Source of the DNA: Planctomycetota bacterium
Lineage (GTDB): Bacteria > Planctomycetota > JAPUJT01
NCBI GenBank assembly: GCA_027296055.1
Contig: JAPUJT010000168.1
Location: forward strand, 1-64,000
DNA: 64,000 nt
Direction of reading: 5' to 3'
Every line of letters begins with the position of its first letter. Position 1 is the stretch's first letter. The position numbers and the translations under genes were made by a program. Shown here piece after piece: positions 21,950 to 31,752 of the stretch. Below the pieces are notes generated by a model. The model was not told the origin of the DNA, ran no database searches, and saw nothing but the letters and a program-made list of their open reading frames with translations.

Positions 21950-22349
21950 TTCGACGAGCGCCCGCGAACATATCATGGGAACGCCGCGTCCCATTCAACA
22001 TCGGCCCCTTATGGGCCGGCATCGCAAGAATCTTTACATGTCAGGGCCTCGGGGCCCTGCTCTATGTCTCGTACCCCCTTCCCGGGGCGTGGCACGGGTC
22101 TTGCTTATCAGTGATCCAGGCAGCCGGTCCGCCCGATGTCCTTGACAGGCTTCTACATGGAGTATATTTATCAGAGTAAGTTGCAATTCCTTGACCACCC
22201 CAGCCCTGCCCCCCACTTGGAGCAAGGAATCGGGTAGGTCGGCCCTGGACGGCCTGGAACGGCCGTGCGGACCGGACGGGGGCCCCAGAAGGTTCGGGTC
22301 TCGCCCACTGAGCGTTCACGCTGCCGACTTCCGTCCCTCCGTGGTGAGG
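21950..22349. other. 400-bp intergenic region before the ESCRT-like cluster, with hairpins
   Basis: There are two short GC-rich hairpins, CGGCCC/GGGCCG at 22002-22018 and CAGGGCC/GGCCCTG at 22042-22059. Neither has a following T-run. They may end transcription of the upstream gene or be part of a leader. A promoter candidate lies at 22142-22170. A 170-base leader between it and the first gene has no recognisable riboswitch. Confidence 0.5.
22142..22170 (+). promoter_or_regulatory. sigma-70-type promoter of the ESCRT-like gene cluster
   Basis: A perfect TTGACA at 22142-22147 is followed after 17 bp by TATTTA at 22165-22170 (TATATT with a 15-bp spacer overlaps it). It is the best promoter match upstream of the ten-gene run 22350-32603 and would drive it as one operon. 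Confidence 0.6.
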
Positions 22350-23195
22350 ATGGCAGTTGGTCCACCTGGAGACGAACCATTGAAACGAACGGCTCTGAGC
22401 CGAGCCGAGGCGAGGGGATTGGAGGAGACCTACACCGACCGGTTCGAGCTGGGACTCCAGCGCGTCGGGGAGGTGCTGAATCCACTGGATGGGAAGGTCT
22501 ATTCGCTCAGCCAGAGTTCCTCGCCGAGGTACTATCACAAGGAAGCGGACGTGGCGGACCGGATGAAGTCGCTCGGAGTCTTCGAGCGCGACATCCTTGG
22601 AGAGATGCCTCGCAACCGCCTCGGAATCCTTAGAATCCGTAAGTCCGGATTCTTCTCCTCGAAGGTGACCCGCCTGGTGATCGTCGCGGCGACCTGCAGC
22701 CCCCTGGAGGAGTTCATCCTGGAGGGCTCTTCGTCCCGGCGGCTCGACCTGGCCGAGATGAACCGGGTGGTCGACGAGGTGGTCAAGCAGGAGGACATCT
22801 TCTACTTCATCGGCGTCCTCTCGACGACGGGTTGGTCGGACGACTGCAAGGGCAGGCTTCCCCAGGGCCCAAACTACCTCCTCGCGGCCGTCGAGAACAT
22901 CGGAGGCTCGCGCTGGCAGGTCGACAAGACACCCGACAGGCGATGGGGCCGGGTCTTCTCCGCCTTCGACGCGGAGACCCGACCCGAGAAGCTGGCGCGC
23001 TGTCAGGCCTACTTCGCGGAGAATACAGACCTCGCTCTGAAGGGAGGCCATGTCGTCCTCGAGGTGGCCAGTGAGGTGCTGGGCGTCCCGGATGACATCT
23101 TCCGCCGAGCGGTGGATGAGGCGGCGCGACGCGACCCGGATCTGGCTGTGATGGAGGTCTCGGGCAAGAAGATCCTCAAGAGAGCGAGAATCTAG
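22350..23195 (+). CDS. unknown protein opening the ESCRT-like cluster, possible C-terminal winged helix
   Basis: I place the start at ATG 22350 (281 residues); a TTG at 22380 with GGAG upstream is possible. The frame stays open further upstream, but that part lies in the leader. I do not recognise the family. The middle has mixed alpha/beta character (LGILRIRKSGFFSSKVTRLVIVAATC). The last ~45 residues (VVLEVASEVLGVPDDIFRRAVDEA, then LAVMEVSGKKILKRARI) have the helix-helix-strand-strand look of a winged helix. Eukaryotic ESCRT-II subunits are built from winged helices, and the gene lies 4 bp before an ESCRT-III-like gene. That makes an adaptor role tempting, but it is only a hypothesis. Confidence 0.65.
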   Translation: MAVGPPGDEPLKRTALSRAEARGLEETYTDRFELGLQRVGEVLNPLDGKVYSLSQSSSPRYYHKEADVADRMKSLGVFERDILGEMPRNRLGILRIRKSGFFSSKVTRLVIVAATCSPLEEFILEGSSSRRLDLAEMNRVVDEVVKQEDIFYFIGVLSTTGWSDDCKGRLPQGPNYLLAAVENIGGSRWQVDKTPDRRWGRVFSAFDAETRPEKLARCQAYFAENTDLALKGGHVVLEVASEVLGVPDDIFRRAVDEAARRDPDLAVMEVSGKKILKRARI

Positions 23196-23199
23196 AATC

Positions 23200-23895
23200 A
23201 TGCTATTTGACAAGCTGAAAGCCCTGTTGAGTCGGCATGCGGTCTCGGATGAGGCGCGACTTGTCGTGGCGAAGTCCGGCAGCACGCGTGACATCCTGCA
23301 CGGCCTCGACGCCTTGCACACCCGCAACGAGATGGAGTTCAATGATGTCACTCGCGAGATCGAGAAGCTCGAGGAAATCGAGGAGCAAGAGATGGGCAAG
23401 GTCCGCAGCAGCGGCCTGTCCGATCGACGGAAGAAGAACGCCCTTCTCCGGATCCGGCGCCTCCGCAAGCAGATGGAGAATCTGGACAATCGCCTGAAGA
23501 TCTTCGACCGAAACATGAGCCTCCACCTCAATCTGATCGGCAAGGTTCAGGACATGGAGGCGATGTCTCTGCGGGGCCTCGACGAGACGCAGATCGACAA
23601 GATCCTCATCGACTTCGAGGAAAAGCTCGAGAGCTACATGGATACCGTCGCCTCCGCCAAGGTGGTGGAGGAGAGCCGGGAGATCGCCGACGTGGCGTCG
23701 GAGCGCGAGCTACGGGAGATCGAACGGGAGGTTCTCGGCGAGGGACCGGAAGAGACCCCGAAGGCGAAGGAAGAGTCGCTCGAGGAGCTCGAGCGAAGGA
23801 TCATGCGAGAGGATACGCCCAAGGCGTCCGAGAAGAAGAAGAAGAAGAAGGAAAAGGCCGCTCCCGAACGGGAGAGTCAGCTCGAATCGGAGTAG
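23200..23895 (+). CDS. ESCRT-III-like helical protein A
   Basis: The 231-residue protein is almost entirely charged helix. A long basic/acidic helical hairpin (about residues 40-110: EIEKLEEIEEQEM, loop RSSGLSDRR, then ALLRIRRLRKQMENLDNRLK) recalls helices 1-2 of the ESCRT-III core. A Met-containing helix follows (QDMEAMSL, then IDKILIDFEEKLESYM). An acidic C-terminal region contains LEELERRIMRED (193-204 region), close to a MIT-interacting motif, before a lysine-rich tail. No transmembrane segment is seen. It sits with two similar helical proteins and two Vps4-like ATPases. By fold logic it would assemble on membranes and be remodelled by those ATPases. This is the weakest of the three ESCRT-III-like calls alongside protein B. 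Confidence 0.6.
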   Translation: MLFDKLKALLSRHAVSDEARLVVAKSGSTRDILHGLDALHTRNEMEFNDVTREIEKLEEIEEQEMGKVRSSGLSDRRKKNALLRIRRLRKQMENLDNRLKIFDRNMSLHLNLIGKVQDMEAMSLRGLDETQIDKILIDFEEKLESYMDTVASAKVVEESREIADVASERELREIEREVLGEGPEETPKAKEESLEELERRIMREDTPKASEKKKKKKEKAAPERESQLESE

Positions 23896-23913: not shown

Positions 23914-24531
23914 ATGGGGATCTGGTCCAAGCTCTTCGGCAAGGAAGTCACGGCGAAGGAGTTGAAGGTTTCCCTGCGCAAAATTGAACGGGAGAGGCGC
24001 AGGCGCCAGCAGGAGATCCGGAAGCTGGAGGCCAAGCGCGGGACCGTCGTCGAGCGTATCAAGACGGCGCGCAAGCAGGGGAACAACCTGGAGGTCGACT
24101 ATCTCTGGGAGGATCTGACCCAGCTCAAGATGGAAGGCGTCCTCGCAATGAAGAGCGCGCGCCGCAGCAATCTCGAGGCGATAGGTCTCAAGAGGTACGT
24201 CCGCGGGCTCGAGCGCCTGGAGAAGAACAAGGACAAGGAGGGCATTCGCAAGCTCTTCACGAGGGTCGCGGAGAGCGGTCTCGACACCAAGCTCGGCGTG
24301 GAGGAGATCAACGAGGAGGAGTATCTCGACGAGCTGCAGATGATCCTCGAGGACGCCGGCCTGAACGACCAGGAGCTGGATCGGGAGGATGAGGACCCGG
24401 AGAAGGCCAAGTTCCTCAGCCAGATAGACGCGATCAACGAAGCGGAGGAAGCTGGCGACTTCGAGGCCGCCACCCAGAAGGAAGAAAAGCTCAAGTCCGC
24501 CGTCGAACCGATGGCCGAGGAAGAAGACTAG
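23914..24531 (+). CDS. ESCRT-III-like helical protein B
   Basis: The 205-residue protein starts MGIWSKLFGKE, like the short amphipathic starts of CHMP proteins. A basic helix follows (residues 16-56, ELKVSLRKIERERRRRQQEI to ERIKTARKQG) and then a second helix (LWEDLTQLKMEGVLAM). The motif 'IKTARKQGN' at a helix turn parallels the 'I+.+.K.GN' turn between helices 1 and 2 of Snf7 proteins. The basic N-terminal half and strongly acidic C-terminal half (EEINEEEYLDELQMILEDAG and the tail) follow the charge layout of ESCRT-III. It lies 18 bp after protein A and 41 bp before the first AAA ATPase. The function is inferred from architecture and context. Confidence 0.65.
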   Translation: MGIWSKLFGKEVTAKELKVSLRKIERERRRRQQEIRKLEAKRGTVVERIKTARKQGNNLEVDYLWEDLTQLKMEGVLAMKSARRSNLEAIGLKRYVRGLERLEKNKDKEGIRKLFTRVAESGLDTKLGVEEINEEEYLDELQMILEDAGLNDQELDREDEDPEKAKFLSQIDAINEAEEAGDFEAATQKEEKLKSAVEPMAEEED

Positions 24532-24572
24532 GCAGGATGAATACGACGAACAGTTGATCTGAAAGATTGTCC

Positions 24573-25760
24573 ATGGATCTCAGCGCCGATCTCCGAAAAG
24601 CCCTCCGCGACGCCATGAAGCGCGCAGACGGCTGCATCTCCGGCGGCAACAGCACCGGGGCGGCGGAAGCCCTCGCGGCGGCATCCCGCATCTCGTTCCA
24701 CCTGGCGGAGCACGCTCCGAGCCGGGACGCGGAGATCCGCGAGAAGAAGCGGGCGATTCGCCTGCGCGAGCGATCCAAGGGCCTTCTCGCGGGAGACGAC
24801 TCGGCAGAAGAAAACGGCGAGAATGCGCCGCAGTCCGACGCGGACGGGATCGGCGCCCTCGTCTCCGAATTGATCCACACATCCAAGGTGACCTGGGACC
24901 AGATCGGCGGCCTCGAGGAGACCAAGAGCGAGATCAAGTACTCCCTCGGCCTCACCCTCGCCAATCGGCCCGATGGGGTCGAGCTGGCCGGATGGCGGGC
25001 CATCTTGTTCTACGGGCCGCCGGGGACGGGAAAGACGCTCCTCGCCGCCGCCACGTCGAACGCCATCAGGACTACCGAGAAAGACCGGGCCGTCTTTTTC
25101 AACGTGAAGGTTGCCAACGTCCTCTCCAAGTTCTTTGGAGAGTCTTCCAAGATCATCAGTGAGCTGTACGGCACCGCCCGCGACATGTCCCCCTCGATCA
25201 TCTTCCTCGACGAGTTCGAGGCCCTCTGCGCCAGCCGCGACGGCGCCGATTCGGGACCGGAGCGGCGAATCCTCTCCACGATCCTCTCCGAGCTGGACGG
25301 CCTGGCGGAGAAGGGGCGCGACGATCTGTACGTCCTCACGATCGCAGCGACGAACCGCCCCTGGGATCTCGACCCGGCGATCCTCTCCCGCTTCGAGAAG
25401 AAGATCCTGATCCCGCTCCCGGACAGGGATGCGCGCGAGGCGATCCTCGACATCCACCTCTCCCGGAGGGGAATCAGGAGCAAGGTGTCGATGGAGGATC
25501 TCGCGGGGATGACGGCGGGGTTCAGCGGGAGGGAGCTCGAGAGCTTCTGCAAGCAGGTGATTTACAAGATGATCCGGGAGCGGAACGAGTCGCTCCCCGA
25601 CATCGTCGATCGGGGACTCGACGCGGTGCGCTCCTACAAGATCAAGGTCCGGGAGCTTGCTCGCCCCGACTTCGAAGACGCGGTGCAGGCGATCCGTCCC
25701 CAGACGAGCCCCGAGGAGGCAAAGCGCTACCTCGAATGGGGCACACGGCTGGACGCGTAG
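24573..25760 (+). CDS. Vps4/katanin-type AAA ATPase A
   Basis: The start is set at ATG 24573 (395 residues). The N-terminal ~72 residues are helical and MIT-like. The AAA domain has IGGLEETKSEI, Walker A GPPGTGKT (148-155), pore-loop SKFFGESSK (185-193), Walker B IIFLDE (209-214) and sensor 1 ATN (259-261). It also has LSRFEKKILIPLPDRDARE (272-290), almost the Vps4/katanin signature 'RRFEKRIYIPLPE'. The end, DFEDAVQAIRPQTSPEEAKRY, is the meiotic-clade C-terminal helix. These features point to an unfoldase that pulls on helical filament subunits, not to FtsH or ClpX. Phe187 replaces the usual pore Trp. It is co-directional with three ESCRT-III-like genes. Confidence 0.85.
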   Translation: MDLSADLRKALRDAMKRADGCISGGNSTGAAEALAAASRISFHLAEHAPSRDAEIREKKRAIRLRERSKGLLAGDDSAEENGENAPQSDADGIGALVSELIHTSKVTWDQIGGLEETKSEIKYSLGLTLANRPDGVELAGWRAILFYGPPGTGKTLLAAATSNAIRTTEKDRAVFFNVKVANVLSKFFGESSKIISELYGTARDMSPSIIFLDEFEALCASRDGADSGPERRILSTILSELDGLAEKGRDDLYVLTIAATNRPWDLDPAILSRFEKKILIPLPDRDAREAILDIHLSRRGIRSKVSMEDLAGMTAGFSGRELESFCKQVIYKMIRERNESLPDIVDRGLDAVRSYKIKVRELARPDFEDAVQAIRPQTSPEEAKRYLEWGTRLDA

Positions 25761-25786: not shown

Positions 25787-26380
25787 ATGGGTCTGTTCAA
25801 GTCGAAGGCCGAGCGCAAGATGGAGCGCGACCTCGAGATTCGCAAGGGAATCAACCATATCAAGAGGCAGATCCGGGATCTCGATCGCAACGAGAAGGAC
25901 TACATCACCAAGGCGAAGCGCGCCCGGAAGATGGGAGCGAACGATCAGTTCTCCTTCCTCAGGAAGACCCTCAAGAAGACGGCCTCGCAGAAGATCCTCC
26001 TGGAGAGACAGCTCTTGAACATCGAGACGGCGTACCAGATCAAGAATCAGGCGGAGGCCCATGCCCAGTTCGCCAAGAGCATGAATGCCGTCTCTCACTC
26101 GATAGCAGAGACATTCGGGGCCACCGATCTCGCAGCGACGCAGAGAGACTTCGAGCAGGCCCTGATGAAGGCCGAATCGATGGAGCAGCAGATGGAGATC
26201 TTCCTCGACTCGGTCTCCGAGACGATGGGGATGGACCCGACCTCCTCCGCCGACCTGGTATCGGATGAGGATATCGATCGAATGGTCGATGCAGAGATCG
26301 TCCACGAGGAAGGTGAGCCGCTCGACGCCGAGATCTCCGATGGCCTGAAGGAGATCGAGAAAGAGCTCGGAAAAGAATAG
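25787..26380 (+). CDS. ESCRT-III-like protein C (CHMP2/Vps2-like)
   Basis: The ATG at 25787 follows a strong AGGAGGA site and gives 197 residues. This is the most ESCRT-III-like of the three helical proteins. MGLFKSK is followed by a basic helix (IRKGINHIKRQIRDLDRNEKD) and the turn KAKRARKMGANDQ. Then come helix 2 (SFLRKTLKKTASQKILLERQ) and a CHMP2-like segment AQFAKSMNAVSHSIAET with MEQQMEIFLDSVSETMG. The acidic tail ends in LDAEISDGLKEIEKELG. Residues 180-191 fit the MIM1 spacing (D/E)xxLxxxLxxL with conservative Ile substitutions. The layout of basic N-half, acidic C-half and terminal MIM is the ESCRT-III plan. It is not PspA/Vipp1, whose N-terminal signature is absent. A Vps4-like gene follows after 5 bp. 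Confidence 0.78.
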   Translation: MGLFKSKAERKMERDLEIRKGINHIKRQIRDLDRNEKDYITKAKRARKMGANDQFSFLRKTLKKTASQKILLERQLLNIETAYQIKNQAEAHAQFAKSMNAVSHSIAETFGATDLAATQRDFEQALMKAESMEQQMEIFLDSVSETMGMDPTSSADLVSDEDIDRMVDAEIVHEEGEPLDAEISDGLKEIEKELGKE

Positions 26381-26385
26381 CGAAC

Positions 26386-27540
26386 ATGTCTGTACGCTTC
26401 GCGATGGAGAACTTCGAGCGGTTCAAGGAGCGAGGGCTCCGCTCCTACCGGGAAGGGGATTTTCGAGAGGCGCGCTACAGCCTGCTGAAGGCGGCCGAAT
26501 ACCTCTTCCAGGTGGCCGCCAAGTCGGAGGGGAAGCTCAAGGAGGTTCGCAAGGAGAAAGCGTCATCGCTCCTGAAGATGGCCAAGAAGATCGATCCAGA
26601 GGCGCCCCCGAAGAAGCGCCGGGGGGCCAAGATGACCGATTCGAAGGACGAGGAGGATGGGGAAGCCCCCTTCGAGACGGTGGAGAAGCCCGACGTCAGC
26701 TTCGCCGACGTTGCCGGTCTCGAAAACGTCAAGGAAGAGATCCGGATCAAGCTGATCTACCCTACCCTGCATCCGGAGAAGGCCGACCGGTACCGGATTC
26801 GAAAGGGAGGAGGCCTCCTCCTGTACGGACCGCCGGGCACCGGGAAGACGCTCATGGCGAGAGCGATCGCGGGTGAGATCGAGGCGGCGTTCTTCACGGT
26901 CAAGCCGTCCGAGGTGATGTCGAAGTGGGTGGGGGAGGCGGAAAAGAACGTGGAAGCGCTCTTCCACACGGCCCGACAGCACCCGCTCTCGATCATCTTC
27001 GTCGACGAGATCGAGGCCCTGATCCCGAAGCGTCGCACATCGCAATCGAGCGTGATGCAGCGGGTGGTTCCCCAGTTCCTCGCGGAGCTGGAGGGTTTTC
27101 ATTCATCCGAGGAGAACGCCCTCCTCTTCATCGGCGCCACGAACGAGCCGTGGAGCTTGGACCCGGCGGTGCTTCGTCCGGGCCGATTCGACGAACGAGT
27201 CTACGTCGGGCTCCCCGATGCCGAGGCGCGGCAGAAGATCCTGGAGATCCACCTCCGGGGGCGCCCGCTTTCCGAGGATGTGAACCTCGGCGATCTAGCG
27301 CAGAGGATGGAAGGTTACAGCGGGGCAGACATCCGAAACGTCTGCGAGAAGGCGGCGGCGGCGGCGTTTCTCGTCGCGGTGAAGGGGGAGGAGGCTCCCC
27401 CGATCTCCGCAGAGTATCTCCAGACAGCGATCGGAGAATCGCCTCCATCCGTTTCGGTGAAGGACCTGAAAAAATTCGAATCCTTCGGCAAGAACAGTCC
27501 CCAACCAACCGGTGGGGGGTCGAGCTCAGGAGCCAATTGA
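26386..27540 (+). CDS. Vps4-type AAA ATPase B with MIT-like domain
   Basis: The product has 384 residues. Residues 7-72 resemble a MIT three-helix bundle (YREGDFREARYSLLKAAEYL, then VRKEKASSLLKMAKKID), compare 'Y.EAL.LY..A.EY' in Vps4. The AAA core is complete: DVAGLENVKEEI, Walker A GPPGTGKT (148-155), pore loop SKWVGEAEK (Trp181), Walker B IIFVDE (203-208), ATN (251-253) and Arg fingers in LRPGRFDER. The end has EYLQTAIGESPPSVSVKDLKKFESF, the Vps4/katanin C-terminal helix. It is expected to bind the C-terminal motif of an ESCRT-III-like protein and thread it through the ring using ATP. It starts 5 bp after ESCRT-III-like protein C, the same pairing as archaeal CdvB-CdvC. Confidence 0.87.
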   Translation: MSVRFAMENFERFKERGLRSYREGDFREARYSLLKAAEYLFQVAAKSEGKLKEVRKEKASSLLKMAKKIDPEAPPKKRRGAKMTDSKDEEDGEAPFETVEKPDVSFADVAGLENVKEEIRIKLIYPTLHPEKADRYRIRKGGGLLLYGPPGTGKTLMARAIAGEIEAAFFTVKPSEVMSKWVGEAEKNVEALFHTARQHPLSIIFVDEIEALIPKRRTSQSSVMQRVVPQFLAELEGFHSSEENALLFIGATNEPWSLDPAVLRPGRFDERVYVGLPDAEARQKILEIHLRGRPLSEDVNLGDLAQRMEGYSGADIRNVCEKAAAAAFLVAVKGEEAPPISAEYLQTAIGESPPSVSVKDLKKFESFGKNSPQPTGGGSSSGAN

Positions 27541-27541
27541 G

Positions 27542-29413
27542 ATGGCATCGTTGGATATCAAGGACTTCGTAAAGAACCCGGACTTCTTCGCCGCCTCGTT
27601 CAAACGGAAGGATCTGCCGGGGATCTTCGAGAAGAAGGTCCGCGTGCCGGCGGGTGCCGTGGCCCTGGTCACGACGCGGGAAGGCAAGCGAGAGGTGGCG
27701 AAGGCGGGCGAGGCGCGAGCGGATCTGGATGAGGTCCTCTTTGTACGTGAGGACGAATCCGGCATAGGGTTCGACGTTCACGCTCTCCTCTCTGGCAACG
27801 GGATGCCGTTCCAGGTCTCCCTGCGGCTCGTCCTTGGCATCCGCAAGGAGGAGATCGATCTCAACCTCTTCCGGCGGAATATCCTCAAGGGAAAGAAGAC
27901 GTACACGATGGACGACCTGCGGGATTACTTTTCCCCGCCGGTCCGGGAGTTCCTCACGTCGTTCGTTCGCGCCCGCAATGCCGATGAGCTCTACCAGCCC
28001 GACATGCCGGGCCACCTGGGCCAGGGAGTCCGCGAGGGACTGAAGCCGTACCTCTTCGAGGGGGGAATCAAGCTCTCCGCCGTCCACCACATCGAGATCC
28101 GTTCGGAGCCGTTCGAGCAGGAGAAGGTCGCGGCCGAAGAGATCCGCAGCGAGGAGCGGGTCGAGGCCCTCCGGCAGGCTCTCTCCTTCCGCCAGGCCGA
28201 GGAGGCGATCGACCTCCAGTCGAAGCTGAAGGAAAAGCGAGTGGATGAGGCCCTCCGCAGGTACGAGGACATCCGGGGGAGGCTCGGCAACGACGACCTG
28301 CGGGCGACGATCATGCTGCTGCAGGATGAAAAGACGAAGGCTCGACTGATCAAGACCCTGATCGAGAAGGAGATGCCCGAGGAGGCGAAGGAGAAGCTCG
28401 AGGCCTCTCGGCTGCGCTCTGACGTGAAGGGCTGGATCAGCGAACTGGCCACGCAGATGCGAATGCGGCTCGGCGACGGAGCGCCCCGGGAGATAGCGAA
28501 GACCCTCTACGCCGTCGGCGGCAAGGAGGTGATGGAGCTCGACGCCCAGGACTTCGGGCCGCGGGCCCGGCCGAAAGCGACGCACGATTTCAGCGAAGGG
28601 GATCTGGGATACCTCCGCAGCGTTCGATTCGATCAGGGCAAGGGGCTCCTGCTCGTGGGCGCCCAGGACGGCGTTTACGTCAAGGACTCGAAGACTGGGG
28701 ACGTCCGGGAGTTCCCCTTTCCGAACAGGGGCAAGGGCAGGGGGGGAGTCAACTCGATCGCTCTTTATGGCTCGGATCTCTTCGCCACCCATTCCGAGCA
28801 GGGGCTGGTGAAGTGGGACCTGCACGGCATCTCGCGGGGCGAGCCGATCCTGAAGGAGGCGACCTCCCGCAACTCCTCGACCCGATCGGCCCAGGTTGCG
28901 GACGGCAAGCTCTTCTTCTCCACCGGGTCGGAGGTCTTCGGGGTCGATCTCGTCAAGTGGAAGTCGACCTCCTTTCGGGGCTTCGGGGACCCGATCACAG
29001 CGGTCGCCGTTGCCCCTCCGTATCTCTTCGCCGGAACGAAACTGGGCGTAATCCTGCGCTGGAAGATCGAAGAGCCCGACAACCCACAGGCCCTGAACCT
29101 GCGCGAGGCCAACCCGATCTACATGATGAAGGTGGCGCCGGTGAGCAACACGGTCTCATTGATCATCGGGGCCAAGGACTTCCGCGTGAACGTCAAGGGG
29201 ATCGACGACGACCTGATCACCGCCTTCCTTTCCGGTGTGGCGATCCGTTGGGTCGATGGCGCCTCCGACGCCGTCTACGGCGTGGACCGGGAAGGTTACA
29301 GGATCTACGTCTGGGAGGCGGGCGTTCCGCAGAAGCCGAAGGCGAGCATCCGACTGGATGAGAAAGTTCAGGACATCCATCTGACCCGTGAGGAGGTCGA
29401 CGCAACCGCTTGA
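27542..29413 (+). CDS. SPFH-like domain plus beta-propeller protein
   Basis: The ATG at 27542 lies 1 bp after the upstream stop, with AGGAG just before it. The 623-residue product has an N-terminal region (about 25-195) with SPFH/band-7 character: VRVPAGAVALVTTREGK, FQVSLRLVLGI and GGIKLSAVHHIEIRSEPFEQEK. A charged helical region (about 195-310) follows. From about 345 there are repeated short beta blades (LLLVGAQDGVYVKDSKTGDV, LFATHSEQGLVKWDL, YLFAGTKLGVILRWK) that suggest a WD-like propeller. There is no clear transmembrane helix. SPFH proteins form membrane-associated rings or scaffolds, and a propeller gives protein contacts. It may be the membrane platform of the system. The SPFH call is moderate. 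Confidence 0.68.
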   Translation: MASLDIKDFVKNPDFFAASFKRKDLPGIFEKKVRVPAGAVALVTTREGKREVAKAGEARADLDEVLFVREDESGIGFDVHALLSGNGMPFQVSLRLVLGIRKEEIDLNLFRRNILKGKKTYTMDDLRDYFSPPVREFLTSFVRARNADELYQPDMPGHLGQGVREGLKPYLFEGGIKLSAVHHIEIRSEPFEQEKVAAEEIRSEERVEALRQALSFRQAEEAIDLQSKLKEKRVDEALRRYEDIRGRLGNDDLRATIMLLQDEKTKARLIKTLIEKEMPEEAKEKLEASRLRSDVKGWISELATQMRMRLGDGAPREIAKTLYAVGGKEVMELDAQDFGPRARPKATHDFSEGDLGYLRSVRFDQGKGLLLVGAQDGVYVKDSKTGDVREFPFPNRGKGRGGVNSIALYGSDLFATHSEQGLVKWDLHGISRGEPILKEATSRNSSTRSAQVADGKLFFSTGSEVFGVDLVKWKSTSFRGFGDPITAVAVAPPYLFAGTKLGVILRWKIEEPDNPQALNLREANPIYMMKVAPVSNTVSLIIGAKDFRVNVKGIDDDLITAFLSGVAIRWVDGASDAVYGVDREGYRIYVWEAGVPQKPKASIRLDEKVQDIHLTREEVDATA

Positions 29414-29426
29414 GTAAGACGGACCC

Positions 29427-30281
29427 ATGTTCAACCTCGTAGGCAAGGTGGCCAGCGTTGTCTTCCTCGTGGCGGTGATCGCCGTCGGCGTGGTGGTCGG
29501 GGTCAGCCTCATCCGATCCGACGGGGGCGACGACCGGGTCGACACCTTTCGATACATCCTGGCGGATCGCGCCGCCGGCGATGCAGCCGCTTCCATTGGT
29601 CACTATTCCGACATCGAAAAGATCTGCCTTCTCCCCGTGGGCGGCGACATTGATCGTGAGATGACGGAACTTCTAGAGGAGCACGTCCGCGCCCTGGGAG
29701 CCTTCCGTCTGATCGAGTCCGGGAAGGTCCGCGACGCTATCGAGGAGGTGATGGAAGGCAAGGAAGGGGACCCGATATCGATCGTCCAGGCGATCGATAT
29801 CGGACGTCGCGTCGGGGCGGAGGCGGTCATGATGGGCAATCTGAAGAAGTTCCTCCCTCCAAAGAGAGGGGCGCCCGCGGAGATCGACTTCGACCTCGAT
29901 GTCATCGATGTCAAGAAGGCGAAGACGATCGGGGAGGCTCACTACGAGGAGACTCTGGACAGGAAGTTCTCGCTCGCCTACTTTTCCGCCTGGATGAGCG
30001 AATCGAGCGGGTGGATCCGGCTGCTCGCCTGGATCGTCATCTCGGGCGGCGCTCCGTTCGCGACTTCTTTCCTCGTCCAGCGGGTGACGAGGATGGAGCG
30101 GAACGCGGCAAACCTCGCCCTCCTCAGCGGTTACACCCTTTTCGATATCTTCCTGGCGTACTTCCTCCTCGGATTCCTCGTCCGGGGGTTCTGGCTGGGC
30201 CTGCTCGTTCTGATCGGGTTTCTGGCCGCTGCAATTTACAATTACATCGCGTGCACCATCATATACGAGATGGGAAAATAG
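29427..30281 (+). CDS. polytopic membrane protein with TolB/CsgG-like periplasmic domain
   Basis: The 284-residue product has an N-terminal transmembrane helix (about 8-29). A soluble domain follows (about 40-190, IEKICLLPVGGDIDREMTELL, then DIGRRVGAEAVMMGNLKKF), and about three further membrane helices end the protein. The soluble part has the 'variable Rossmann' look of TolB-N/CsgG domains, in which a short helix precedes 'AEAVM.G'. It starts 14 bp after the SPFH-propeller gene and is clearly part of the same transcription unit. It could anchor the cytoplasmic ATPase/filament system to the membrane. No enzyme motif is visible. Confidence 0.7.
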   Translation: MFNLVGKVASVVFLVAVIAVGVVVGVSLIRSDGGDDRVDTFRYILADRAAGDAAASIGHYSDIEKICLLPVGGDIDREMTELLEEHVRALGAFRLIESGKVRDAIEEVMEGKEGDPISIVQAIDIGRRVGAEAVMMGNLKKFLPPKRGAPAEIDFDLDVIDVKKAKTIGEAHYEETLDRKFSLAYFSAWMSESSGWIRLLAWIVISGGAPFATSFLVQRVTRMERNAANLALLSGYTLFDIFLAYFLLGFLVRGFWLGLLVLIGFLAAAIYNYIACTIIYEMGK

Positions 30282-30312: not shown

Positions 30313-31752
30313 ATGGGCACCGCTCTGCTGAAACCTGGCGACCGGATCTCCGAATACCTGCTCGAAGAGAAGATCGGGCAGGGTGGGTTCGGCGAAGTCT
30401 GGCGCGCCCGTCATCACCTCTGGGCGGACCAGCAGGTCGCTGTGAAGATCCCGCTACACGCCGACTGGGTCCGGAAGCTCAAGAAGGAAGGGATGATCCA
30501 GCACGACCTTGGCGGGGACGGAGTGGTGAAGACCCTCGGCCTGGATCCGGACAATGACCCGCCGTATCTGATCCTCGAATACATCGACGGAGGCTCCCTC
30601 CGGGATCAGATCGACAAGGAGGGCCGGTTCCCGGTCGCGCGCGCCCTGGAGATCGCTGCCGACACGATGCGGATCCTGGTGGGGGCCCATGCCAAGGGAA
30701 TCACCCATGGCGACATCAAGCCCGAGAACATCCTGATGGAATCGACGGGGAAAGTCCTGCTCGCCGACTTCGGGTTGAGCCAGATGATGCAGGAGGCCGC
30801 CCAGGACGGGGACCTGGCGGCGAGCCTCTTCACCCAGCAGGGCGAGGGCATCCAGGGGACGATTGCCTACATGTCCCCGGAGCAAAAGGACCCGCGGCGG
30901 CCCGTCGATCACCGCACCGACATCTACTCCCTGGGATTGGTCTTTTTCGAGATGTTGACCGGTTCTCTCCCGGAGGGGGGGGAGGTCCCGAGCGATTTGC
31001 ATCCCGGATTACCCGTGGAGGTGGACCGGTTCTTCCGTCGCTGCTACGCGAGGCTGGAGAAACGGTTCGCCTCGGCCGCCGACGCTCTCGAGGAGCTCGA
31101 GCGACTCGGAAGGACTACGGCGACCGTCAAACCGCCGCCCTTGCCAGCGCCTCCTGAGCACCAGGGACTCTTGACCGAGAAGGAGGCCGCATCCTTCCTG
31201 AGAATCGACATCGTCCAGTTTCGGCGGCAAACCGCCGGCGGGTGGTTGTCCCCGATCAGGCTGCAGACAGGGGAAGAGGGCTTCCGCCTGGCCGACCTGG
31301 CCCCGATTCGACGCAAGATCCGGGACGAATTACTGAAACCCGTCGGGCAACGGGGTCCCCACCAGGCGCACTACGCGGGTTACCTCGTGCGCAGCACGGC
31401 ATTCGTCATAGACTCCCTGGCCGTGATCGTGGTCCCGATTTCCTGGCCTCTGGAACTGTCGGGACTCTTCGTGGCCATCCCGGGCCTCGCACTGATAATG
31501 TTGGCACACGGAGTTGTGGGACACGGCGTCTGGGGAAAGACCCTGGGGAAGGCCATCCTCGGCCTCCGCGTGGTTCGTCGTCCTGGGCAGGAGATGGGCG
31601 CCGGCACAGCCGTGGTGCGATCGTTCGGGAAGATCTTCTCGTTCCTTCCATTCTTCATGGGGTTCTTCATGGCGGGCCTGCATCCTCAGAAGCGGGCCCT
31701 GCACGACCTGATCGCCGAGACCTGGGTGATCCACGACAAGAGAAGTAAATAA
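30313..31752 (+). CDS. Ser/Thr kinase fused to HTH and RDD membrane domain
   Basis: The product has 479 residues in three parts. Residues 1-275 are a Hanks-type kinase: GQGGFGEV glycine loop, VAVKIPL lysine, catalytic loop HGDIKPEN (Gly replaces the Arg of HRD), ADFG and MSPEQ. About 290-345 is an excisionase/MerR-like helix-turn-helix (LLTEKEAASFLRIDIVQFRR, then GFRLADLAPIR). About 355-475 is an RDD membrane domain (YLVRSTAFVIDSLAVI, GKTLGKAILGLRVVRR, KRALHDLIAETWVI). The missing Arg marks a non-RD kinase, usually not activated by activation-loop phosphorylation. It follows the membrane protein by 31 bp, so it may control the ESCRT-like system. Confidence 0.86.
   Translation: MGTALLKPGDRISEYLLEEKIGQGGFGEVWRARHHLWADQQVAVKIPLHADWVRKLKKEGMIQHDLGGDGVVKTLGLDPDNDPPYLILEYIDGGSLRDQIDKEGRFPVARALEIAADTMRILVGAHAKGITHGDIKPENILMESTGKVLLADFGLSQMMQEAAQDGDLAASLFTQQGEGIQGTIAYMSPEQKDPRRPVDHRTDIYSLGLVFFEMLTGSLPEGGEVPSDLHPGLPVEVDRFFRRCYARLEKRFASAADALEELERLGRTTATVKPPPLPAPPEHQGLLTEKEAASFLRIDIVQFRRQTAGGWLSPIRLQTGEEGFRLADLAPIRRKIRDELLKPVGQRGPHQAHYAGYLVRSTAFVIDSLAVIVVPISWPLELSGLFVAIPGLALIMLAHGVVGHGVWGKTLGKAILGLRVVRRPGQEMGAGTAVVRSFGKIFSFLPFFMGFFMAGLHPQKRALHDLIAETWVIHDKRSK

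Follow-up and report, generated by a model that had tools for sequence, protein, structure and literature searches.

Reviews restrict ESCRT systems with Vps4 to archaea and eukaryotes (PMC10936438), and bacteria are described as lacking a clear Vps4 (PMC7615534). In the crenarchaeal Cdv system, CdvB has no MIM1 and contacts CdvC by way of a proline-rich MIM2 (PMC5840170, PMC7240154). SPFH and ESCRT-III genes are linked in archaea, and a role for SPFH proteins as platforms has been suggested for archaeal ESCRT and PspA loci (PMC10936438). For bacteria, the main text of Ravi et al. 2024 describes scattered Snf7/AAA associations as well as Vps4-like ATPases without snf7; a search of that main text alone found neither a MIM-MIT pairing nor a Planctomycetota system (PMC11237479). 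In the literature searched, preprints being outside its scope, no mention was found of a Vps4 or an ESCRT system in bacteria.

Here, we scrutinized a window of 64,000 nucleotides from a Planctomycetota genome, in which an ESCRT-III-like gene lies between two MIT-AAA ATPase genes. Coordinates refer to this window, and all features lie on its + strand. From the established homology, MIT-domain fold, conserved motif, locus, and co-occurrence, we interpret the cluster as an ESCRT-III/Vps4-type system with which Planctomycetota remodel membranes, with a probability of roughly 0.78; that the filament protein polymerises, binds the ATPase, and is disassembled by it, and what the system does in the cell, are inferred. 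A bacterial ESCRT-III with a MIM1-like tail and MIT-AAA ATPases across an FtsZ-less phylum would alter the archaea/eukaryote-only picture and give a candidate, open to testing, for the means by which some Planctomycetota sever or mould their membranes. It would also inform the question of whether MIM-MIT recognition is ancient, was acquired by transfer, or evolved convergently.

The ESCRT-III-like gene and its neighbors

The ORF at 25787-26380 has an ATG start with an AGGAGG ribosome site just 5' of it and encodes a 197-aa protein, which the original prediction had called ESCRT-III-like. Profile, fold, and evolutionary evidence support its assignment as ESCRT-III/Snf7-like, although its own match to Pfam Snf7 (PF03357; E 2e-4 to 3.3e-4, 20.8 bits) fell under the curated cut-off of 27.3. 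When 13 homologs were each searched on their own, 11 matched the same model. Residues 11-152 matched human CHMP3 by phmmer (E 1.3e-5), and a profile of 38 ESCRT-III homologs, searched against 177,635 PDB sequences, returned eight matches, all of them ESCRT-III (CHMP3, SNF7, and CHMP2A). The AlphaFold (AF2) model (mean pLDDT 74.6) comprised helices at residues 7-48, 52-109, 115-147, 160-175, and 178-195, in the ESCRT-III-like order of an alpha1-alpha2 hairpin and an alpha3-alpha5 core, with the last helix (178-195) separate. ESCRT-III proteins occupied eight of the top nine Foldseek ranks, the best natural matches being CHMP2A/CHMP3, Sulfolobus CdvB, and CHMP1B; E-values were weak (0.08-0.4), as is usual for helical proteins.

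The ATG of the downstream ATPase gene, here AAA2 (26386-27540; 384 aa), lies five bases 3' of the ESCRT-III stop codon (26378-26380), so the ORF coordinates bear out the 5-bp gap reported previously. A N-terminal fold other than a MIT bundle would have refuted the original prediction. However, residues 1-80 were predicted to form a three-helix bundle (AF2, pLDDT 94.5), and the folds nearest to this MIT-like domain (residues 3-68; 26392-26589) were MIT domains. The best three Foldseek matches were Sulfolobus CdvC/Vps4-like MIT domains (2w2u, 2v6y; probability 1.00), followed by those of SKD1, Spartin, Vps4, NRBF2, and MITD1, with the best TM-score (0.78, 1.4 Å rmsd) recorded for the yeast Vps4 MIT domain (4niq). 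Sequence-profile matches were weaker (chitin synthase MIT 2mpk, E 3.5e-4; CdvC MIT, 0.047). AAA2 has a single classical AAA core (PF00004, E 1e-41; AAA_lid_3, 3e-10) with Walker A/B (GPPGTGKT and VDE motifs), and a C-terminal Vps4_C-like segment (27394-27492; PF09336, E 3.3e-4) that scored 21.0 bits, 0.3 bits below the cut-off of 21.3; nine of 16 AAA2 orthologs matched this model, the best at E 2e-6. The NCBIfam CdvC model aligned residues 12-367 to model positions 13-364 of 370, MIT domain and C-terminus included, but AAA2 failed the equivalog cut-off by a wide margin (218 bits vs. 650), scoring 249 bits to Cdc48 (core alone) and 227 to PAN. Given these scores, AAA2 is called Vps4-like in architecture and not a CdvC ortholog. 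Its Vps4 character resides in the MIT domain and C-terminal helix, not in the family score of the AAA core. Thus, of the MIT-like region joined to a Vps4 AAA core proposed earlier, the MIT fold is retained, whereas the core is not specifically Vps4 by score.

A second MIT-AAA ATPase gene, AAA1 (24567-25760), lies directly upstream of the ESCRT-III gene and had been overlooked; its translation likely begins at an ATG at 24573 rather than at 24567. The profile of its N-terminus (MIT domain, residues 9-76; 24591-24794) matched human VPS4B MIT across the full domain length (E 2.2e-6), the best match besides TPR proteins and a stronger sequence-profile match than that of AAA2. Profile-profile comparison of the two MIT domains (hhalign) gave E 2.7e-8 and a probability of 95%. 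The CdvC model aligned to AAA1 (102-395/92-368), eight of 19 orthologs carried Vps4_C (best E 3.3e-6), and the core bears a PW-x-LD...SRFEKK signature, here NRPWDLD...SRFEKK, which we take to resemble the Vps4/katanin group. No Vps4-like ATPase other than AAA1 was found in the f22 family. In the absence of binding data, AAA1 and AAA2 are equally plausible partners of the ESCRT-III tail.

Upstream of AAA1, the cluster comprises a gene conserved across loci (22191-23195), with a MerR-type HTH in a distant ortholog, and two coiled-coil partners, cc1 (23200-23895) and cc2 (23914-24531), likewise conserved in the locus and possible co-polymer subunits. Both cc proteins have amphipathic starts (MxLLxxIKxLF in cc1; MGxFxxLF, ESCRT-III-like, in cc2). 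Tested as ESCRT-III paralogs, they had no Pfam support and hhalign probabilities of only 1-18%: homology of cc2 to the Snf7 profile was not established (9-18%), and cc1 had no homology to Snf7 detectable by hhalign. Hence, they are kept only as candidate co-subunits. Downstream of AAA2, a conserved gene (27542-29413) encodes an SPFH (Band 7) and beta-propeller-like protein; orthologs match Band_7, including one above the cut-off (E 2.7e-5), while the propeller-like C-terminal half is an inference from the sequence. A membrane protein with a weak LpoB-like region (29427-30281), conserved in the cluster, is followed at the cluster end by a Ser/Thr protein kinase with an RDD membrane domain (30313-31752; Pkinase, 3.4e-34; RDD, 7.2e-17) that is conserved at many loci. 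In one f22-family genome, AAA1 and the ESCRT-III gene are separated by a kinase-like gene (L133:9918-10829) with a WaaP/Kdo-kinase-like HRDYY motif read by eye.

Recurrence of the cluster and of the MIM1-like tail

Scanning the genome collection with an ESCRT-III alignment recovered 48 loci, nearly all in Planctomycetota MAGs, which share in whole or in part the order upstream gene, cc1, cc2, AAA1, ESCRT-III, AAA2, SPFH/propeller, LpoB-like, and Ser/Thr kinase. With recurrence in 48 loci and in 55 of 392 Planctomycetota genomes, the pairing of ESCRT-III and ATPase is not a chance neighbourhood. Among the 55 genomes with the ESCRT-III gene, 42 encode AAA1 orthologs and 33 encode AAA2 orthologs; 53 have one or both, compared to only six of the 337 genomes without ESCRT-III. 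Five of these six are at most 80% complete, and the two ESCRT-III genomes with neither ATPase (G103 and G214) are both fragmented f22 genomes. Fisher's exact p for this co-occurrence, 4e-56, overstates the evidence because the genomes are related. Six or more relatives have AAA2 elsewhere in the genome, not beside the ESCRT-III gene; hence, the pairing is conserved at the genome level and not by strict adjacency. Adjacency had been put forward as the strongest argument for the system, a place that belongs instead to genome-wide co-occurrence and conservation of the tail.

Mis-binned archaeal contamination was ruled out, since the locus occurs on Planctomycetota contigs of 0.9 and 2.5 Mb (L056, L059). 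Two loci with other labels, one Hydrogenedentes (L036) and one 'bacterium' only (L052), both carry AAA1 plus ESCRT-III. As the gene was found in just one of 68 genomes of the phylum to which L036 is assigned, transfer and mis-binning cannot be distinguished there.

The 197-aa protein ends in LDAEISDGLKEIEKELGKE, within which DAEISDGLKEI (residues 180-190; 26324-26356), followed by EKELGKE, forms a MIM1-like C-terminal helix and the proposed MIT ligand. These residues follow the spacing [DE]xxFxxxFxxF (F, hydrophobic). Relative to the strict MIM1 consensus in a C-terminal helix, [DE]xxLxxRLxxL[RK], the window tail (DAEISDGLKEIE) keeps the hydrophobic spacing and has Gly in place of Arg. The claim that the tail fits MIM1 spacing is thus upheld with this exception. 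The spacing occurred near the C-terminus in 32 of 32 readable genomes encoding AAA2, where shuffled tails would give 2.1; in the protein core, it occurred in 11% of 35-residue windows. Nine AAA2-encoding relatives have the strict Arg/Lys form, [DE]xxFxx[RK]FxxF (e.g., EDKVSSRLDSLRERF), and the textbook [DE]xxLxxRLxxL is found in some relatives. No proline-rich MIM2 was seen in the tail. One AAA2-encoding genome (G160) that appeared to be MIM1-negative was rejected as such and excluded from the count, since its motif is present behind an in-frame TAA. At L038:8880, an in-frame TAA precedes a MIM1-like tail (GVDKDIEKGLKDIQNELDKEK after it), reflecting either a nonsense change or an assembly error.

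The f22/f80 clade and G005 are truly without AAA2; their tails have mostly lost the third hydrophobic (REELDREIARELGED) or are absent, with three f22 genomes still matching the pattern via Met. Two genomes that are 79-81% complete (G101 and G288) keep the motif with AAA2 undetected, and may simply be incomplete; in G279 AAA2 begins at a contig edge, and in G036 a divergent AAA2 adjoins the ESCRT-III gene. On the ESCRT-III core tree the AAA2 label changes four times, approximately two of these changes being credible losses. Tail erosion accompanies the loss of AAA2 in both lineages concerned, amounting to only about two independent events.

Charges on MIT alpha3 and the tail are complementary (Spearman -0.67): Arg tails are neutral and paired with an acidic alpha3, whereas Gly tails are acidic and paired with a basic alpha3, the alpha3 differences sitting at positions 60 and 67. 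Without clade f19/f52 the covariation vanishes (rho -0.21, p 0.33), so it represents essentially one event. Residue-level covariation carried by a single clade was rejected as independent proof of the pairing.

Proposed mechanism and competing explanations

In the system we propose, the 197-aa subunit would polymerise on the inner membrane through its N-terminal MGLF... segment and alpha1-alpha4 hairpin; cc1 and cc2 would probably contribute additional subunits to the filament. The MIM1-like helix would dock on the MIT domain of AAA2, and possibly on that of AAA1, whereupon the ATPase could pull the subunit through its pore, with filament turnover leading to membrane constriction or repair, or to release of the membrane. 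The SPFH/propeller protein, a plausible membrane platform, and the membrane-anchored kinase would likely localise or regulate the system. FtsZ (TIGR00065) was not detected in the window genome (92% complete), nor was it found in 382 of the 392 genomes of the phylum, consistent with its general loss in Planctomycetota (PMC6952346). FtsZ was therefore dropped as a discriminating feature, as carriers cannot be told from non-carriers by it, and its phylum-wide loss permits a division role without demonstrating one. A tentative and rather unlikely extension is that the cluster is a genuine ESCRT-III/Vps4 scission machine by which Planctomycetota without FtsZ divide, bud, or remodel compartments. 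Such a machine would employ two specialised MIT-ATPases and a MIM1-type recognition known elsewhere in Asgard archaea and eukaryotes.

The ESCRT-III core could instead be a divergent envelope-stress protein of PspA/Vipp1 type, beside AAA chaperones by chance and with no ESCRT-III/Vps4 machine. PspA and Snf7 do belong to one superfamily (PMC8281802), and bacterial PspA is sometimes encoded near AAA+ ATPases and SPFH proteins (PMC11237479, PMC10936438). However, PF04012 (PspA_IM30) was absent among the matches listed for the 197-aa protein and its 13 homologs, most of which matched Snf7, and the PDB profile search retrieved no protein other than CHMP3, SNF7, and CHMP2A. Neither a MIM1-like tail nor MIT ATPases are PspA features. 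Furthermore, PspA (PF04012) was not detected in the 92%-complete window genome, and elsewhere carriers possess PspA as a gene of its own in addition to the ESCRT-III gene. Taken with these observations, a PspA-type protein is very improbable. We regard as unlikely, with less assurance, that AAA2 is a Cdc48-like unfoldase with other clients, the tail a generic amphipathic helix, and AAA1 the only true partner of ESCRT-III. In its favor, the AAA2 core scores highest to Cdc48, and three-helix bundles are common. The MIT match of AAA1 is the stronger of the two, AAA1 is as often directly 5' of the ESCRT-III gene (16 loci, <200 bp), and tails of AAA1-only genomes retain D-x-[ED]-I-A-x-x-L. Yet the best structural matches of the AAA2 N-domain are specifically MIT domains, every readable AAA2-encoding genome preserves the third MIM1 hydrophobic that AAA1-only f22/f80 and G005 have mostly lost, and 11 genomes with AAA2 and without AAA1 retain the motif.

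A different question is whether bacteria evolved MIM1/MIT pairing by convergence, on a scaffold of the PspA/Snf7 superfamily, as opposed to receiving an archaeal/eukaryotic-type ESCRT by transfer. Convergence is a matter of origin and not of mechanism, and it can hold together with the ESCRT-III/Vps4-type system favored here. The almost exclusively Planctomycetota distribution, an AAA core closer to Cdc48, and low identity to any archaeal ESCRT-III are in line with convergence, while the joint presence of a Snf7-type core, MIT, AAA, and Vps4_C, and a nearest single-sequence relative in CHMP3, speak against it. Convergence remains a serious possibility, albeit not the one we would favor.

Comparison with described systems

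Bacterial PspA/Vipp1 (IM30) shares the ESCRT-III filament superfamily with the 197-aa protein, and SPFH partner genes are reported at PspA loci; PspA/Vipp1 differs in having no MIM and no MIT-AAA partner, and the Pfam PspA model does not match the 197-aa family. In the bacterial associations set out in the main text of Ravi et al. 2024, Vps4-like genes are accompanied by a TPR/6TM gene instead of snf7, and Snf7/PspA bearing a TM segment is encoded alongside AAA and transporter genes (PMC11237479). As in the Planctomycetota cluster, archaeal Meth_adaptin ESCRT loci encode SPFH together with ESCRT components including Vps4, although these loci are archaeal and have adaptin-like and ProX components (PMC10936438).

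Like Sulfolobus CdvB-CdvC, the locus has an ESCRT-III gene beside a MIT-AAA gene, a MIT fold nearest to that of Sulfolobus CdvC, and an ATPase that aligns throughout with the CdvC family model. Unlike Sulfolobus Cdv, the cluster encodes a pair of distinct MIT-AAA ATPases along with an SPFH protein and a kinase, its host is bacterial, and no cdvA-like gene was recognised among family matches at the locus. The original prediction that the gene pair mirrors archaeal cdvB-cdvC therefore applies to gene order and not to the motif. Since CdvB uses MIM2 without MIM1, the Planctomycetota tail resembles eukaryotic and Asgard Vps2/24/46 rather than CdvB. In contrast to Asgard and eukaryotic Vps2/24/46-Vps4, the window tail lacks the MIM1 Arg, the AAA core is nearer Cdc48, no ESCRT-I/II was found at the locus, and there is no direct evidence of endosome-like membranes. 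The likeness to Vps2/24/46 (CHMP1/2/3)-Vps4 lies in the Leu/Ile C-terminal helix, whose MIM1 spacing some relatives show in its strict form, and in CHMP3 as the top sequence match.
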